Source of the DNA: Gemmatimonadota bacterium
GTDB lineage: Bacteria; Gemmatimonadota; Gemmatimonadetes; Longimicrobiales; Gaopeijiaceae
Assembly (NCBI GenBank): GCA_022822325.1
Contig: JAJEBW010000025.1
Span: 62,001 to 126,000 of the forward strand
Reading direction: 5' to 3'
DNA length: 64,000 nucleotides
Shown: positions 16,458-24,336 of the stretch, one piece after another
Layout of the letters: every line of letters begins with the position of its first letter
Numbering within the stretch: position 1 is the stretch's first letter
Translations under genes and position numbers: made by a program
The notes under the pieces: generated by a model
The model's database searches: none
Seen by the model: only the letters and a program-made list of their open reading frames with translations
What the model was told of the DNA's origin: nothing

Positions 16458-17183
16458 ATGACTTCACCGGTCCAGCTCGGCGACATGGCCGGACTCTCCC
16501 AGGCGCTCGGGTCCAATCCGCTCCTCGCCCTCGTCGTGCTCTTCGGCGCCGGCGTCGCGATCAGCCTGACCCCCTGCGTCTATCCGATGATCCCGATCAC
16601 CGCGTCGGTGATTTCCGGAACCGCCGAGCAGGGACAGTCGTGGCGGCGGACGGCAGCCCTGACCTTCACCTATGTGTCGGGACTGGCGCTTCTGTACGCG
16701 CTCCTGGGAACGGTCGCCGGGATGACGGGGACGCTCTTCGGGTCGGTGAGCGCAAGCCCATGGGCGCTGCTCGCAATCGGCAACCTGCTTCTCCTCTTCG
16801 CGCTCGCCATGTTCGACGTCGTTCCGGTACGGGTGCCGCAGCGGTTGATCGCGTGGGCCGGGAGCCGCGAGGGAGGTTCCTACGGCGCGGTCTTCGTGCT
16901 GGGCGCCACCTCCGGACTCGTGGCCGCACCCTGCGGAGCGCCCGCCTTCGCCGCCGTCCTGGCGTGGGTCGCCGCCACCCGGGCCGGACTCATGGGATTC
17001 GTCTACCTCTTCGTGTTCTCGCTGGGGATGACCGCCGTGCTGGTTGCGGTCGGCCTCTTTTCGGGAACGCTCTCGAAGCTGCCGAAGTCGGGTCGCTGGA
17101 TGGTCGCGGTCAAGCGCGGGGCGGCAATCGTCATGCTCGGCGTCGCGCAGTACTATTTTGTGCAGGCGGGGTACAACCTGTGA
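16458..17183 (+). CDS. CcdA/DsbD-like transmembrane thiol-disulfide carrier
   Basis: The 241-residue integral membrane protein has about six hydrophobic helices and the two family cysteine motifs: SLTPCVYPMIPIT in the first helix and APCGAPAF in the fourth. In CcdA and the DsbD core these cysteines carry reducing equivalents from cytoplasmic thioredoxin across the membrane. The length is that of stand-alone CcdA, with no fused periplasmic domains. A TlpA-like thioredoxin follows, which is the expected electron acceptor, so the pair may serve cytochrome c maturation or periplasmic thiol reduction. Confidence 0.85.
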   Translation: MTSPVQLGDMAGLSQALGSNPLLALVVLFGAGVAISLTPCVYPMIPITASVISGTAEQGQSWRRTAALTFTYVSGLALLYALLGTVAGMTGTLFGSVSASPWALLAIGNLLLLFALAMFDVVPVRVPQRLIAWAGSREGGSYGAVFVLGATSGLVAAPCGAPAFAAVLAWVAATRAGLMGFVYLFVFSLGMTAVLVAVGLFSGTLSKLPKSGRWMVAVKRGAAIVMLGVAQYYFVQAGYNL

Positions 17184-17243: not shown

Positions 17244-17320
17244 GCGTGAGGACAAAGGAAGCGTGAGAAAACAAAAAGCGTGAGAGGAAAGAAAAACGTG
17301 AGAAATGGAAGCGTGGGAAG
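17244..17320 (+). repeat. Purine-rich imperfect repeat, period about 17 bp
   Basis: Five copies of [AG]CGTG[AG]G start at 17244, 17261, 17278, 17296 and 17311 in an almost pure A/G stretch, striking in such GC-rich DNA. It lies between the CcdA-like and TlpA-like genes and supplies several alternative GTG codons in different frames. Confidence 0.65.
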
Positions 17321-17357
17321 ACGGGCCGGGGCCGGAGGGAGCACGGCAACAGGAATC

Positions 17358-17948
17358 GTGGGAAGCCAGGCCCAGGCGAGTCGGCGTGCAGGGAGGCCGA
17401 TCGTTGAGACGTGGGGCGCGGCAAGGGCAGGCGGGGGCTTCGGGGCACGGACCTTTCTTCTGCTGGTGGCGGGACTGGCTGTCGGCGTGGGGCAGATCCG
17501 TGCGCAGGAAGGGGGACTCGGTCTGGCGCCGGGTACGGCCGCGCCGGATGCACAGGTGGAGGACCTGGACGGGAACGCGGTTTCGCTGCTGGAGGTGGTC
17601 GGCGGCGGCCCCGCGCTGATCGAGTTCTGGGCGACCTGGTGCGAACAGTGCGAGGCGCTTCAGCCCGAGATCGACGCCGTGGTCGAGCGATTTGGGGACC
17701 GCGTGCAGATCGTGGCAGTGGCGGTAGGGGTGGCGCAGTCGCGGCGCCGGGTGCAGCGGCATGTTGGGGCTCACGATCCCGGGTACCCCTTCGTGTACGA
17801 CGCGAGGGGCGAGGCCGTGCGCGCCTACGAGGCCCTGACGACGGCGATCGTGGTGCTGGTGGACGCCGAAGGAAAGGTGGTCTCGACCGGCGTGGGGCCG
17901 CAGCAGGATCTGGTTGCGGCGGTGGCGGGGGTGTTGGGGGAGGGGTGA
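17358..17948 (+). CDS. TlpA-like periplasmic thioredoxin
   Basis: The protein has an N-terminal signal or anchor (FLLLVAGLAVGVGQIRAQ) and a thioredoxin fold of the TlpA/ResA type with PGTAAPDAQVEDLDG, then EFWATWCEQCEALQPEI containing the redox CxxC (WCEQC). The cis-proline region is altered: TTAIVVLVDAEG stands where a TPxxFLID pattern is usual. It likely receives electrons from the CcdA-like protein encoded just upstream and reduces periplasmic disulfides. The start is uncertain: GTG codons at 17280, 17298, 17313 and 17358 are in frame, and the earlier ones lie in a purine repeat. I chose 17358, which has AGGA just upstream. Confidence 0.8.
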   Translation: MGSQAQASRRAGRPIVETWGAARAGGGFGARTFLLLVAGLAVGVGQIRAQEGGLGLAPGTAAPDAQVEDLDGNAVSLLEVVGGGPALIEFWATWCEQCEALQPEIDAVVERFGDRVQIVAVAVGVAQSRRRVQRHVGAHDPGYPFVYDARGEAVRAYEALTTAIVVLVDAEGKVVSTGVGPQQDLVAAVAGVLGEG

Positions 17949-17961
17949 GGGACCCGCGGCG

Positions 17962-19173
17962 ATGAGCGGCGCTCGGGGATGGCGGGTCACGCATCCCTGG
18001 ATCAGCTTTCGGTCTGATCTCGGGCGGGCGGATCCCGGCTTCTGGTCCTTGGTCGGCCGGGTCGTGTCCCGCTGCGAGCAGGTGGCGCGCGCGGTGCTTC
18101 CTCCGGCGGAGGCCCGGGAGATGATGCGCGTCTACCTTGTCAGAGGCGCCCAGGCAACGACCGCAATCGAGGGGAATACGCTCTCGGAGGAAGAGGTCGC
18201 GGCGCAGTTGGAGGGGCGGCTGCAGCTTCCGCCGTCGCGGGCGTATCTGGCTCAGGAGGTTGAGAACGCGCTGGCGGCCCTGACCGAGACCTTCGAAGCC
18301 ATCAACGGGGGCGACCCGCCCCGACTGACCCCGGACTGGATTGCCGATATCAATCGCCGACTGTTGGCGGGGCTTGACGATCACCTTGGTGAGGGTGTGA
18401 TTCCCGGCGAAATCCCCGTGCATTCCGTGATCGTGGGCCGGTACCGGGGAGCGCCCCGGGAGGACTGTCGGTTCCTGTTGGACCGCCTCTGCCAGTGGAT
18501 CGAGGGCGGCGCTTTCCGATCACCTGGCCAATCACGCGGCGATGAGATCGAATCGGCGGTCATTCGCGCGATTCTGGCCCACCTCTACATCGCATGGATT
18601 CACCCATTTGGCGATGGCAATGGCCGCACCGCCCGCCTCGTCGAGTTCAGGATTCTCGCACGCGCTGGAGTCCCCGCACCCTGCGCCCACCTGCTGAGCA
18701 ACCACTACAACCGGACGCGGGCCGAGTACTACCGACAGCTTGACCGATCCAGCCGGGCCAACTCGGGACAGGGCGATTCGCTCGGATTCCTGCGCTACTC
18801 ACTCCAGGGACTGGCCGATGGGCTCCGCGAGCAGTGCCGGTACATCGAGGGTGTGCAACTTCGGCTGGCATGGGAACATTACGTCTATCAGCGCTTCGGC
18901 GAGATGCGGAAGTCCGATGCGCTTCGGCGGCGGCGAGAGCTCACGCTGGCGCTGGGACGAAAGGCCGGCTCGGTTCCGAAGCCGGAGATCGCCTCGTCGG
19001 CGCCTCGTCTGGCGGCGCTCTATGCCAATACGGTTCCGGCAACGCTCAGTCGTGACCTCAACTGGCTGGTAAAGGAGGGGTTCCTGGAGAGGGGCGATGG
19101 CGGGTACCGGGCGAGGGTGGGAGCGATGCTGGCGTTTCGGGCGAGGCGGGCGGAAGGCAGCGGGTCGGCGTAG
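17962..19173 (+). CDS. Fic-domain protein with N-terminal inhibitory motif
   Basis: Fic proteins usually transfer AMP from ATP to a target Ser, Thr or Tyr. This 403-residue protein has the complete active-site motif HPFGDGNGRTAR starting at residue 214 and, near residue 65, TTAIEGN, which fits the (S/T)xxxE(G/N) inhibitory helix of class II Fic enzymes. It should therefore be self-inhibited through that glutamate. The C-terminal 100 residues contain a winged-helix-like segment (LARDLNWLVKEGFLER type, here LSRDLNWLVKEGFLERGD), common in this large family and possibly autoregulatory. The ATG at 17962 lies 13 bases after the TlpA-like gene. Its 3' end overlaps the convergent nucleotidyltransferase gene. 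Confidence 0.9.
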   Translation: MSGARGWRVTHPWISFRSDLGRADPGFWSLVGRVVSRCEQVARAVLPPAEAREMMRVYLVRGAQATTAIEGNTLSEEEVAAQLEGRLQLPPSRAYLAQEVENALAALTETFEAINGGDPPRLTPDWIADINRRLLAGLDDHLGEGVIPGEIPVHSVIVGRYRGAPREDCRFLLDRLCQWIEGGAFRSPGQSRGDEIESAVIRAILAHLYIAWIHPFGDGNGRTARLVEFRILARAGVPAPCAHLLSNHYNRTRAEYYRQLDRSSRANSGQGDSLGFLRYSLQGLADGLREQCRYIEGVQLRLAWEHYVYQRFGEMRKSDALRRRRELTLALGRKAGSVPKPEIASSAPRLAALYANTVPATLSRDLNWLVKEGFLERGDGGYRARVGAMLAFRARRAEGSGSA

Positions 19174-19573
19174 GTTGCGGACGTTGGTAGAGGACTTTGC
19201 CTTCGCGGAGCGCGCGCGCCAGCACGTGATTGATGGAATCTCGCCAGTATTCGACCTCATCCAGCGAGAAGACAAGGATGTCGACATCTACCCGGAATCG
19301 GGCAACGGCATGGTAGAGGCGAACGAGTTCCTTGCGTCGACTGCGTGCGGGGCCGAAGGGTTGGGTCTCCAGGACGATGAGGTCGATATCCGAATCGGGC
19401 CGGGCTTCGCCTCGGGCGCGGGAGCCGAAGAGGATGATTTGGTTTGGGTCCACTTCCTGGACGATGGCGCGGAGTATGGCTGGAAGGAGATCGGGGGTGT
19501 TTGCCCGAAAAAGATCTCCGGCCGCCAGCTCGCTACCGCACATTAGTCCAGTTCGCCGAGTCATCTCACACAT
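19058..19573 (-). CDS. MNT-type minimal nucleotidyltransferase
   Basis: The N-terminal 130 residues form a small nucleotidyltransferase domain with FGSRARGEARPDSDIDLIV, giving the GSxxxG and DxD catalytic pattern, and a later DVDILVFS carrying the third acidic residue. MntA proteins of this type act as antitoxins that AMPylate HEPN toxins; no HEPN gene is visible here, so it may be an orphan. The ATG at 19573 has AAAGG eight bases upstream; a GTG at 19582 is also possible. The Pro-rich C-terminal 40 residues are read antisense through the Fic gene end and are probably not conserved. Base composition is less GC-rich than in neighbouring genes. Confidence 0.8.
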   Translation of the reverse strand: MCEMTRRTGLMCGSELAAGDLFRANTPDLLPAILRAIVQEVDPNQIILFGSRARGEARPDSDIDLIVLETQPFGPARSRRKELVRLYHAVARFRVDVDILVFSLDEVEYWRDSINHVLARALREGKVLYQRPQPTPTRCLPPASPETPASLPPSPGTRHRPSPGTPPLPAS

Positions 19574-20024
19574 GTTTGGCACCTTTGATTCTCACGGGAT
19601 CTTCGCACTGATCAAATCCACTTGGAGGATCGCCATGCAGCTCCCGTAGCTCTCGCCACACAACCGGGTCCATGCGCTGGACGTTGACTTTGCTCCTGGT
19701 GACCACGTTACCGCGCGAACCAAGTCCGTGGCCGAAGAACACACCACCGAATTCCGTGAGCACGAATCTGTCATGGATTTCCTCGCCGTTCTCCATTCGC
19801 CTCAAACGGCGAAACGTCACGCTGATTCCTTGGGGAACATCCTTATTCATTTCCCTACATCCCCGCTCGAAATCTGGTCCGCTCCACTTCCTATCGTCAT
19901 CTTTGACATGAACCTCCACCTTCCTTGGCATCTGGCACGGTCGAGCCACGAGAACCCGAGCAAGAAAAGCCCGAAACGGATCACGGAAAGCTACATCATA
20001 CGGATCAAAATATGGTCGCCCCAT
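19566..20024 (-). pseudogene. C-terminal fragment of a PLD-like or unknown accessory protein
   Basis: This 152-codon frame reads like the end of a larger protein. It has DPYDVAFRDPFRAFLARVL, KVEVHVKDDDRKW and, most telling, EIHDRFVLTEFGGVFFGHGL. The last resembles the second half of phospholipase D-like domains, where an H-x-(K/R) motif precedes a Gly-rich strand; this match is from memory and is low confidence. There is no upstream part: the sequence before codon 1 belongs to another gene remnant in a different frame. GC content is clearly lower than the flanks, suggesting transfer. The stop overlaps the start of the MNT gene. Confidence 0.45.
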
Positions 20025-20103
20025 ACAGCAGCGTAATCGGCCGCAGGGGAATGCTCTGCTCCCTCCCGAACGCCTTGAAGTTCGCCAGCCGCAGGCCCGT
20101 CAG
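20005..20103 (-). pseudogene. Remnant of an AAA ATPase N terminus (RecF/OLD-like)
   Basis: Directly after the peroxiredoxin stop codon, a frame reads LTGLRLANFKAFG, REQSIPLRPITLLYGA and then stops. This is the classic first strand and turn of SMC/RecF/OLD-type ATPases (LxxxNFKAFG...IPLRPLTLLYGPNSSGKSS), cut exactly before the Walker A loop. No ATG is left; a run of nine C bases (20107-20115) separates it from the peroxiredoxin. The reading then passes into the PLD-like fragment, so a deletion has joined the start of one gene to the end of another. Confidence 0.65.
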
Positions 20104-20114
20104 GCGCCCCCCCC

Positions 20115-20699
20115 CTACCCCTCCACCTCCGGCGTCACCTCGTCAACCGCCGCCCCCAGCTCCTCATACGCCGCCGGATCGTTGGGATTGAATTGCGGAA
20201 TCACCTTCGCCACGCGCCCGTCCGGCCCTACCACGATCACGGCCCGGCTGTCGACCATGTTGTTGTCGCGCAGTCCTCCGCCGAAGAGGGTGTAGGTGGC
20301 GCCGTCGTTGTCTGCGTCGCTGGCGAAGAGATAGGGGAAGTCCTCGTCCTTCAGCCAGGATGCGCCCTCTTCCGGCGAATCGTTCGAGATCGCCATGAGC
20401 ACGACGTTGCGGCCTTCGTTGAACAGCTCTGCGTACTGATCACGGTACGCTGTCATCTGAATCGTTCAGCCGCGGGTCCTGACTCTGAAGAAGAAGGCGA
20501 GCACCACCGTCTCTCCGCGGTAGTCGCTTAGCCGGACCGGGTCGCGGAGGACTCCGTGGCGGGTCGCGCCGGGCAGCTCGAAGTCGGGGGCCATCGCTCC
20601 GACCTCGACGAGGCCGCCGGTCTCCTGCGCATGGCTCGCCTCCGTCATGCCGATTCCAAGGGCGACGGCCAGCGCGGCCGCCATGACGATTCTTCGCAT
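20115..20699 (-). CDS. Peroxiredoxin, probable selenoprotein (in-frame UGA at the catalytic site)
   Basis: Read through one UGA at 20468-20466, a single frame encodes 194 residues: a signal peptide (AAALAVALGIGMTEASHAQ), then an AhpC/TSA-type peroxiredoxin with GAMAPDFELPG, VRLSDYRGETVVLAFFF, RVRTRG-U-TIQM, YRDQYAELF and ISNDSPEEGASWLKDEDFPY. The UGA is residue 78 and occupies the position of the peroxidatic cysteine in the family's TxxC motif (here T-R-G-U). The mature protein has no cysteine at all, so without selenocysteine it could not work. A hairpin with bacterial SECIS geometry starts 15 bases after the UGA. If UGA were a stop, two meaningless fragments would result. A nonsense mutation of TGC remains possible. 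The protein would reduce peroxides in the periplasm. Confidence 0.8.
20431..20450 (-). promoter_or_regulatory. Candidate bacterial SECIS element
   Basis: On the minus strand GCGTAC, an eight-base loop CGTGATCA and GTACGC form a perfect six-pair stem. It starts 15 bases and its loop 21 bases after the UGA, with G as the second loop base. This matches the usual bSECIS rule (loop 16-37 nt downstream, G in the first two loop positions). Confidence 0.7.
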
Positions 20700-21064
20700 C
20701 GTTGCTCATCTCCTGTGGTGTGTCGCGGTTCGAGGCCTCGCGCCGTTCCCGTCGGCGGACGCCGGAAAGATGATAGCACCTTCCCGCGCGGCGGGCGAAT
20801 CCTATCCCGTCCCGTCGGCACCCGGGCCAGTCCGGAATGCCGTTGGAGCGGAAAACAAGCGTCTACCCCATCGGCCCGGCCGCGGCCCCGCAATCGCCGG
20901 TCTCCATGTGGTCTGTGGCGAGCCTGCGGGGAGGGGGCCTGCGGCCCGACTCCCTGGGACCCCAACTCGGCCGCCATTTCGGATGATTGGACGCCGATGG
21001 TAACATCCACTCCACCGGGAGACAACCACCCATCGCCACCTTTCACCCCGGAGTAACCCACCCG
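20700..21064. other. Divergent intergenic region
   Basis: This gap separates the peroxiredoxin from the metallo-beta-lactamase-fold gene. It holds the peroxiredoxin ribosome-binding site (AGGAG on the minus strand). I see no further gene, strong promoter or repeat. Confidence 0.5.
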
Positions 21065-22419: not shown

Positions 22420-24336
22420 TTACCGGATCCCGGGGTGGTATTCATCGAAGTGGAGGTCGCGGGCGCGCTGGATTCCCTCAAATGGCTGCCCATCGGCAAC
22501 CAGATAGAGGCGGTCGCGGGCCCGGGTCATGGCCACAAAAAGGCGGTCGCGGTTGCGTTCGCTCTGCTCCTCCTCGGTCTCCACGGAGGCAGACAAACCA
22601 AGCATGACGATCTGTCCCGGCTTGGGGCCATCTTGGTCCAGCGGAAATCGCGACGCACCAAGGCGCGGTATGAAAACCGCGCGAAACTCCATCCCCTTTG
22701 CACGGTCAAAGGTACCGACCCGGATGCCATTGCCGAGTGTGTTGGACTTTAGATCCTTCAGATTCACGCAAGGCATGGCACGCTTCCGGAGGGACGCTAT
22801 CAATTTCTCGGCGTAATGGTTATGCAGGACGATCACCCCAATCTCGTCGTGCGTGAATCCCATCTCGTCAACCAGATGCCGGATCTCATCCAGGATCACC
22901 TGCATTTCCTTCCGCTTGGTAACAGCCAGAACCGGCCGCTCCCCCCGGCCGCGCTCAAAGCTGCCCGGTTGCCCTGTTTTTCCCCGGTCGTCTTTCTTCC
23001 CCCGCACCGCCAGCGCCGCCTTGAAGATCCTGGTAGTATTGCGGAAGTTGACCTTGAGGACATCGGAATTTCGCCGTCTGAGATCAAGACCGATCCACAC
23101 TGGCCTCCAACCACCCGGATAGATGCGCTGATGGTCAGCGTCGTCCAGAATCAGGATGCTGTCCGTTTGGAGCTTCACCTTCGGTTCTCCCTGCACCAGC
23201 GCCAGAATGAACTCCATGCCGACCTGCGTCATGTCCTGGGCTTCGTCCACGATCGCGGCGCGGTACCGCCGACTTGAGAGAATCCGGGCCTGGTCGCGCG
23301 CCTCGACGATCCGGTCGGGAAAGTCAACCGTATTCCGCAGCTTCATCTCCCAGTCCCACGCCACCCGCAAGCGCCAGGCGATTTCACGCTCTCGTTTGCG
23401 GAAACCGCGACCCCGGCCCAGCCTCTCGAAGCTTCCGGTGTCAAGGTACTCCTCCTTGTACGCGCCCCTGCCCTTGATGATGCGCCGGACCTCGTCCTGC
23501 ATGTACCGGCGGTCCAGACTGGCCATCTCCTCCCGCGGCACTGCGCTTTCGTAAGCCACCTCGAAGGCCTGGTCGACGGCGGGCATGTGGATTCGCCGTT
23601 TGTCAAAAACGTAGGCGAGCTTGTCAATGTTGAGGAAGTCGACATTGGTCGGCGGACTGGGGACGCGCCCGAAGAGCGTCTTCATATGATTGCACAACGA
23701 ACGACTAAAGGTTGTCACCAGGATCCTCTCGCCCGGATAGCGGCGCCCGAGGACGACAGCCCGGTGAAGCGCAACGACGGTCTTGCCGGTCCCGGCCCCA
23801 CCCCTGATCCTGCCCTGGCCCATATCATATCGACGATTGACGAGTCTACGCTGATGTTTTGGGAGATAGAGCGTCCACTCCTCGAACGGCTGCTCGAAGG
23901 CTCCTGGGAGAGGCGCCACAGGCTTTTTCCGGCGAGGTAGCACCATGTTGCGGAGCACGCCGGAATTCCCATTGAGCGTCTGCACGGGCAGATCGGAAAC
24001 CAGTCCGTACTCGCTCAGATCAGTTCGGTGGCGACGCCCACCGGACCACCGATACATCTCGTCGTCGCGCCCCATGTTCAGGAGCCCGATTCGCCGAGGG
24101 CTGATGTGGTCTGGATCCAGGGCAATGATGACACGCAGCTCTCGCGAGGCCCGGAGCGACCAGTGATTCTGATTGGCTCCCGAACCAAGACGTTTGCAGT
24201 TCAGGCCGGGGTGACGGGGACGGGAGAGGAATCTCTCCGCGGCGCGGATACATCTCCGGCTGTCTTCGTGCTGGAACCCCCACTCAACGGGATCTTTGGC
24301 TCGGCGGTGGAAGTCTTTGCCCAGGAGATATTGCAT
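22420..24336 (-). CDS. UvrD-like superfamily I helicase with N-terminal RelE/ParE-like domain
   Basis: Residues 1-105 resemble a RelE/ParE toxin fold: CIRAAERFLSRPRHPGLNCK, then HWSLRASRELRVIIALD and LLNMGRDDEMYRWS. From residue 155 comes a UvrD/Rep-type helicase with a Q-like segment (LPKHQRRLV), Walker A GGAGTGKT at 179-186, motif II IVDEAQDMT, GTFDRAKGMEFRAVF and VAMTRARDRLYLV. Fusions of this kind are known in bacterial genomes, but their role is unclear; they may process nucleic acid after ribosome or phage stress. GAGG precedes the ATG at 24336. Lower GC content than the flanks suggests acquisition. The gene stands alone, divergent from the PQQ dehydrogenase. Confidence 0.82.
   Translation of the reverse strand: MQYLLGKDFHRRAKDPVEWGFQHEDSRRCIRAAERFLSRPRHPGLNCKRLGSGANQNHWSLRASRELRVIIALDPDHISPRRIGLLNMGRDDEMYRWSGGRRHRTDLSEYGLVSDLPVQTLNGNSGVLRNMVLPRRKKPVAPLPGAFEQPFEEWTLYLPKHQRRLVNRRYDMGQGRIRGGAGTGKTVVALHRAVVLGRRYPGERILVTTFSRSLCNHMKTLFGRVPSPPTNVDFLNIDKLAYVFDKRRIHMPAVDQAFEVAYESAVPREEMASLDRRYMQDEVRRIIKGRGAYKEEYLDTGSFERLGRGRGFRKREREIAWRLRVAWDWEMKLRNTVDFPDRIVEARDQARILSSRRYRAAIVDEAQDMTQVGMEFILALVQGEPKVKLQTDSILILDDADHQRIYPGGWRPVWIGLDLRRRNSDVLKVNFRNTTRIFKAALAVRGKKDDRGKTGQPGSFERGRGERPVLAVTKRKEMQVILDEIRHLVDEMGFTHDEIGVIVLHNHYAEKLIASLRKRAMPCVNLKDLKSNTLGNGIRVGTFDRAKGMEFRAVFIPRLGASRFPLDQDGPKPGQIVMLGLSASVETEEEQSERNRDRLFVAMTRARDRLYLVADGQPFEGIQRARDLHFDEYHPGIR

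Follow-up and report, generated by a model that had tools for sequence, protein, structure and literature searches.

A cysteine-free, likely selenocysteine-dependent peroxiredoxin widespread in the Gemmatimonadota, with an unusually fixed hairpin and a likely CcdA–TlpA electron supply

In the window, i.e. the whole stretch of 64,000 nucleotides of Gemmatimonadota DNA analysed here, the minus-strand gene at 20115–20699 is, with a probability of roughly 95 % and judging from sequence comparison, a peroxiredoxin that uses selenocysteine (Sec). That its UGA codon 78 would be decoded as Sec is, from the comparison of genomes, next to certain. The gene forms a single frame, running from an ATG at 20699 to a TAG at 20115, whose sole internal stop is a TGA, and no other decay is seen in it. 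Read through, the product has 194 residues, none of them Cys; the motif at the UGA is T-R-G-U, and Sec is the only redox residue, there being no second Cys or Sec. The original prediction of a probable selenoprotein had described one frame broken only by the UGA at 20466–20468, a UGA in place of the Cys of the peroxiredoxin TxxC motif, and a mature protein otherwise lacking Cys, and all of these features were recovered; the prediction is supported, since the refuting observations that were looked for all failed to appear. From the arrangement of the frames, a gene finder that takes the UGA as a stop would split the peroxiredoxin in two, and annotations of a widespread phylum may therefore lack one of its envelope antioxidant enzymes. 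The features of the gene are as follows.

20115–20699, minus strand: Sec peroxiredoxin gene, with UGA read as Sec (Pfam AhpC-TSA; family of relatives)
20466–20468, minus strand: UGA within the frame (codon 78), occupying the peroxidatic site (relatives and solved BCP-like peroxidases have their aligned Cys here)
20628–20699, minus strand: signal-peptide-like N-terminus of about 24 residues, ending SHA/Q (by eye)
20710–20714, minus strand: AGGAG, likely ribosome-binding site (by eye)

The protein matches the Pfam models PF00578 (AhpC-TSA; 74.2 bits, cut-off 26) and PF08534 (55.2 bits, cut-off 26.6). Its scores on all seven of the listed NCBIfam models fall short of the respective cut-offs, PrxU (NF040737) scoring 43.7 bits against 270 and BCP thiol peroxidase (NF006960) 47.1 bits against 140. 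By sequence, its nearest solved structures are BCP-like thiol peroxidases, the best being 2cx3 (54.1 bits), and in the alignment their Cys falls on the presumed Sec; on this sequence evidence the protein belongs to the BCP/PrxQ-like branch. Across 22 aligned members, Thr75 is nearly invariant and Arg152 is invariant, the latter aligning with an Arg of 2cx3 and being, we presume, the peroxiredoxin active-site Arg. Peroxidase activity is, on these grounds of sequence, probable. The motif of Sec peroxiredoxins has been given as PxxxTxxU in a 2026 review (PMC13188914), and the full PxxxTxxC/U motif is absent from the window protein, which has the TxxU part and Phe71 at the position of the Pro. That position holds Phe in 120, Tyr in 31, Pro in 35, Ile in three, Ser in two and Val in two of 193 distinct UGA regions, vs Pro in 49 of 49 distinct Cys regions; hence, within this sample, an aromatic residue occurs there only alongside Sec, while Sec also occurs without one. 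The protein had also been called periplasmic. What stands of that claim is a signal-peptide-like N-terminus recognized by eye, with the same kind of start in the aligned relatives, from which export is very probable.

The UGA is conserved well beyond the window. The 98 nearest genomes yielded 61 loci for examination (two contig-end pieces of one genome, G007, having been left out), and exclusion of five distant peroxiredoxins (L077–L081) reduced these to 56 family loci, 54 of which, counting that of the window, carry UGA at the Sec position; the other two (L066 and L071) have Cys. L078 of genome G092, one of the excluded loci, encodes another, BCP-like type of peroxiredoxin on its minus strand, with a UGA in TPGUT and one more Cys. 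A scan of named genomes gave 301 relatives, and the best 80, which as the nearest to a Sec query are biased towards Sec, all have TGA at the site (80/80), as do, on residue re-check, all of 82 further loci that had been preselected for a TGA. The titles of the best 80 loci name the Gemmatimonadota or its subgroups in 76 cases, Gammaproteobacteria in three and Euryarchaeota in one; BD2-11, Palauibacter and Longimicrobiales are here taken to be groups inside the Gemmatimonadota, and the four outlying titles are assumed to be mislabelled bins. Of 395 genomes sampled from the phylum, 325 match the family at 1e-20 or better, in Sec or Cys form. Among aligned members, protein similarity runs on past the UGA, with residues conserved on both sides. 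The alignment of homologues at residue 78, proposed as a check with the prediction, thus gave UGA in nearly all near loci and Cys in other members, and the opposing outcome, i.e. close relatives with TGC and a decaying copy in the window, was not what was found, as the relatives have TGA and the window copy no further decay. Of the accompanying claim that a periplasmic one-Sec form would be new for this lineage, the part that holds is that no report of a Cys-free, probably exported variant turned up in open-licence papers; as to lineage the claim was too narrow, given the spread of the family across the phylum, and the wider family of Sec peroxiredoxins had been described earlier.

The source genome has what Sec decoding would need. 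Its assembly (3.48 Mb, 49 contigs, 94 % complete) contains a tRNA-Sec at 79.7 bits (gathering score 47), called also by ARAGORN as a SeC tRNA with anticodon tca, together with SelA (389.6 bits, cut-off 22.8), SelB (289.5 bits, cut-off 242.25) and SelD (374.2 bits, cut-off 125), so that the four genes suggested as a check are all there, over curated cut-offs. The SelD gene (L087, contig 16) contains a TGA of its own, in frame at the active site (HGAGUACK), and SelD is probably also a selenoprotein. A second peroxiredoxin-like gene of the same genome (L004, contig 29, 1429–2058, minus strand) has one in-frame TGA, in FYRGHWUPYC; its exported-looking product is a probable second selenoprotein.

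Across the phylum, the residue at the site follows the Sec machinery, as judged from sequence matches. SelA was matched in 287 of the 395 sampled genomes, 255 of which also have a family match and 32 of which do not; a further 70 genomes have a family match without SelA. The residue re-examination took in those 70 and 80 of the 255, leaving out 175, and it used a line of 180 bits between family and weaker matches that was set after the lists had been viewed. Among the 80 SelA-positive genomes, 68 have UGA, one (G157) only Cys and 11 only matches below 180 bits, vs 14 with UGA, 46 with Cys and 10 with only such weaker matches among the 70 SelA-negative genomes. Since the 14 UGA genomes without a SelA match might reflect gaps in draft assemblies, tRNA-Sec was sought in these 14, in the 46 Cys genomes and in 10 SelA-positive controls (70 genomes in all), with stricter filters under which weak matches can be lost; it was found in 14 of the 14 UGA genomes and in none of the 46 Cys genomes, as well as in 10 of 10 controls, two of them Cys forms (G058 and G157). 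The residue was read again in all 128 sequences on which the UGA and Cys counts rest, and in that of G157 (L261). A count of stops was not taken by itself as proof of Sec, G240, listed with one TGA, having proved to have Cys and a terminal TGA; the Fisher values of 1.6e-20 and 8.6e-13 were computed with this Cys genome still counted as UGA. The Cys genomes are clustered in few genera, many coming from g73, and genomes of one genus are not independent. Within genus g28, G049 has UGA, SelA and tRNA-Sec, and G168 has Cys with neither SelA nor tRNA-Sec; among the matches listed in the phylum-wide family search, only G058 and G168 lack an internal stop. Among the 98 nearest genomes, 53 have UGA and SelA, one UGA without SelA, 29 neither, and 15 SelA without a UGA gene of this family. 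G058 and G157 have Cys at the site even though SelA and tRNA-Sec are present, and so the machinery can persist where the family gene has gone to Cys.

Switching between Sec and Cys has, on the trees of these sequences, occurred repeatedly, no direction being claimed. In a tree of 78 rows, three Cys forms are nested among UGA forms, and in a wider tree of 87 rows there are nine Sec/Cys changes over the 85 family rows, at least three of which are imposed by well supported branches; Cys forms sit near the root too, and the placing of that root is unsure. In several g79 genomes, Cys-type and UGA-type copies adjoin one another in the same direction; one such pair (L260, G143) was residue-checked.

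Two ways of denying that the UGA is decoded bear on the core claim. Sequencing error, or a mutation that has disabled the gene and left a pseudogene, might be suspected in a draft assembly of 49 contigs in which a single base decides the reading. The same UGA nevertheless stands in 54/56, 80/80 and, on re-check, 82/82 loci, and a read error would hardly recur in so many separate assemblies; with an otherwise intact frame and a protein similarity that carries on across the codon, this explanation is scarcely credible. Hardly less improbable is a genuine stop, whereby the halves would be separate proteins or the stop a regulatory switch. In its favour, the list of open reading frames holds a frame of 113 aa, with its own ATG, that begins just past the UGA (20115–20456); yet the exact replacement by Cys where tRNA-Sec is absent (14/14 vs 0/46 genomes) and the conservation of residues on either side of the codon fit Sec decoding, though part-time termination at the UGA may occur under selenium scarcity. 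The Sec reading is kept in what follows.

Just downstream of the UGA lies a hairpin that would serve as the upper part of a putative SECIS.

20431–20450, minus strand: upper hairpin of the putative SECIS, six-pair stem and eight-base loop CGUGAUCA (20-mer and synonymous conservation)
20420–20468, minus strand: possibly an extended SECIS whose lower stem takes in the UGA (fold predicted in the window and in L022)

The stem is GCGTAC/GTACGC with an eight-base loop (CGTGATCA), and it begins exactly 15 bases past the UGA, the same geometry as had been described before. In bacterial SECIS elements, a stem-loop follows closely 3' of the UGA and has a small, G-containing apical loop (PMC1088965), and the window hairpin is of this kind in both its distance and its loop. 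The 20-mer is found letter for letter in 172 of 193 distinct UGA regions vs none of 49 distinct Cys regions, and six pairs can form in 192 of 193 vs four of 49. Amino-acid change explains part of this difference; even over the same peptide, YRDQY, the UGA codon set is found in 174 of 191 UGA regions that have the peptide vs none of the 10 Cys regions that have it. Over the seven sites of the hairpin (codons 84–90), the commonest codon has a mean share of 0.966, vs 0.640 at 43 other sites of conserved residue, a synonymous conservation for which a rank test on 100 distinct UGA genes gives p = 6.7e-5. The codon of Asp87, for example, is GAT in 98 %, whereas GAC is the commoner at five of six other conserved Asp sites.

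Covariation was rejected as evidence for a SECIS, the six upper pairs being invariant in 72 distinct sequences, and hence uninformative, and the lower stem, in which with the UGA 72.2 % of cells are paired (72 sequences), being no better than shuffles. Folding energy was likewise rejected as proof, the z-scores being mixed. The 54-nt region of the window folds no better than its shuffles (z = -0.77, 39/200 as good); L022 reaches -3.51, L090 -1.27 and four other UGA regions -0.13 to -0.88, while L206 (0.59) was scored on a stretch that missed the hairpin, L004 (-0.06) on one that began a base late, and the two Cys stretches (1.00 and -0.85) were both placed nine bases further downstream than intended. 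The window's own region having an ordinary folding energy, support for the hairpin comes from its conservation and not from its energy.

If an enzyme, the protein would need a partner, as a single Sec with no resolving Cys calls for an outside reductant. Two plus-strand genes of the window are candidates for supplying the electrons.

16458–17183, plus strand: CcdA-type membrane electron transporter, proposed feeder of the thioredoxin (Pfam DsbD_TM, 161.2 bits, cut-off 27.1)
17280–17948, plus strand: TlpA/ResA-like thioredoxin with WCEQC, start codon uncertain, proposed reductant (Pfam Redoxin and Thioredoxin)

The CcdA-type protein has 241 aa and matches models of the DsbD transmembrane domain only; the thioredoxin scores 68.7 bits on NCBIfam ResA, below the cut-off of 170. 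Both genes point toward the peroxiredoxin gene, i.e. are convergent with it, at a distance of about 2.2 kb. The intervening stretch (17949–20114) separates TlpA-like and peroxiredoxin genes that in relatives are usually close, and it looks like an insertion; it holds a gene for a Fic protein (17914–19173, plus strand; PADLOC SoFic, 172.1 bits), a nucleotidyltransferase-like frame that overlaps it (19058–19582, minus strand) and a frame of 152 aa without a match (19566–20024, minus strand). Elsewhere in the window, at 22420–24336 on the minus strand, a frame of 638 aa resembles UvrD/GajB-like helicases (PADLOC, 64.1 bits to a NERD+UvrD model). Among the best 80 of the 301 loci, CcdA and TlpA relatives lie nearby in 63 and 64, respectively, on the strand opposite to it apart from one of each. 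A survey of 134 UGA loci, with some genomes represented twice, found both partners at 103, TlpA alone at six and neither at 25; one of two Cys loci in the same survey has both. Among 71 further loci, with some repeats and many flanks shorter than 2 kb, both partners were found at 26 of 52 UGA loci and none of 19 Cys loci. The neighbours recur beside UGA forms across several of the phylum's families.

The proposed mechanism would begin with tRNA-Sec and SelB, which would decode UGA codon 78 as Sec at the hairpin just downstream. In the cell envelope, the Sec would attack hydroperoxides, passing to the selenenic acid, and the oxidised Sec would then be reduced by a partner, for which the TlpA-like thioredoxin encoded nearby is the best candidate; that thioredoxin would in turn receive electrons from the cytoplasm through the CcdA-type membrane protein. 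This relay, from CcdA through TlpA to the peroxiredoxin, is on the present analysis rather favoured, with the convergent layout that precludes an operon, the loci that have no such partners, and the separation of about 2.2 kb in the window all counted against it. An alternative, possible if on balance somewhat improbable, is that the Sec peroxiredoxin is reduced otherwise, by a low-molecular-weight thiol or another exported thioredoxin: convergent genes need not work together, and CcdA and TlpA were not found near 25 of the 134 and 25 of the 52 UGA loci, some of them with short flanks. The recurrence of the pair beside UGA forms in several families speaks for the relay instead, as does the use of a TlpA by an analogous system of Caulobacter (PMC5403849). 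The protein might also be a selenoprotein of peroxiredoxin fold with another main reaction, such as the repair or reduction of other oxidised envelope substrates. Phe or Tyr in place of the motif Pro (151 of 193 distinct UGA regions) means that the active-site pocket departs from the norm; the nearly invariant Thr of TxxU and the Arg152 shared with 2cx3 argue the other way, and a dithiol reaction would lack its second Cys or Sec, making this alternative unlikely. It stands at about even odds that many Gemmatimonadota with the Sec trait run an envelope shield of CcdA, TlpA and a Sec-only peroxiredoxin, its motif Pro mostly replaced by Phe or Tyr, and that loss of the machinery goes with Cys, decay of the hairpin and Pro. 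If this is true, the phylum amounts to a repeated natural experiment in the swapping of Sec and Cys. Matched Sec and Cys forms, together with tRNA-Sec, the hairpin and one active-site residue, make the benefit of Sec in a peroxiredoxin directly testable.

The enzyme would also give one use to Sec genes already reported. One study has reported SelA and SelB genes in the majority of its bins of sponge symbionts (PMC5649159), two bins of which are among the named loci (L090 and L131), and from Challenger Deep sediments sel genes have been reported, along with their transcription, with Gemmatimonadota named as one of the groups active there (PMC8938466). The TxxU-type Sec peroxiredoxins form an established family (PMC13188914, PMC9312934, PMC1088965), for which a count of 91 proteins in 78 organisms has been given (PMC5029168). 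No report of a Cys-free, probably exported Sec peroxiredoxin clade was found in open-licence papers; this clade, usually with Phe or Tyr for the motif Pro, is what is new.

Set beside known systems, the window protein has its closest solved relatives among the BCP/PrxQ thiol peroxidases (2cx3, 4gqc and 2ywn), with which it aligns over nearly the whole mature protein, and from which it differs in having Sec where they have Cys and in a score well under the NCBIfam BCP cut-off (47.1/140 bits). BCP/PrxQ enzymes often carry a resolving Cys. The peroxiredoxin-like UxxC selenoproteins, one of which (FYRGHWUPYC) is encoded by the source genome, belong to the same Pfam family and have a second redox residue, in contrast to the single Sec in TxxU here. 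With the Sec peroxiredoxins (PF00578/COG1225), including the experimentally described PrxU of Eubacterium acidaminophilum, it shares the domain, the peroxidatic Sec and TxxU (PMC13188914, PMC9312934), and it differs from them in having Phe for the Pro of PxxxTxxU, a signal-peptide-like N-terminus, no Cys and a score of 43.7/270 bits on the NCBIfam PrxU model. The proposed electron supply has its nearest counterpart in Caulobacter, where a Cys version of the chain, leading from ScsB through TlpA to the peroxiredoxin PprX, likewise joins a transporter of the DsbD family, a TlpA-like thioredoxin and an envelope peroxiredoxin (PMC5403849); in the window the transporter is of the short CcdA type rather than ScsB, the peroxiredoxin carries Sec, and the electron flow is a proposed one.
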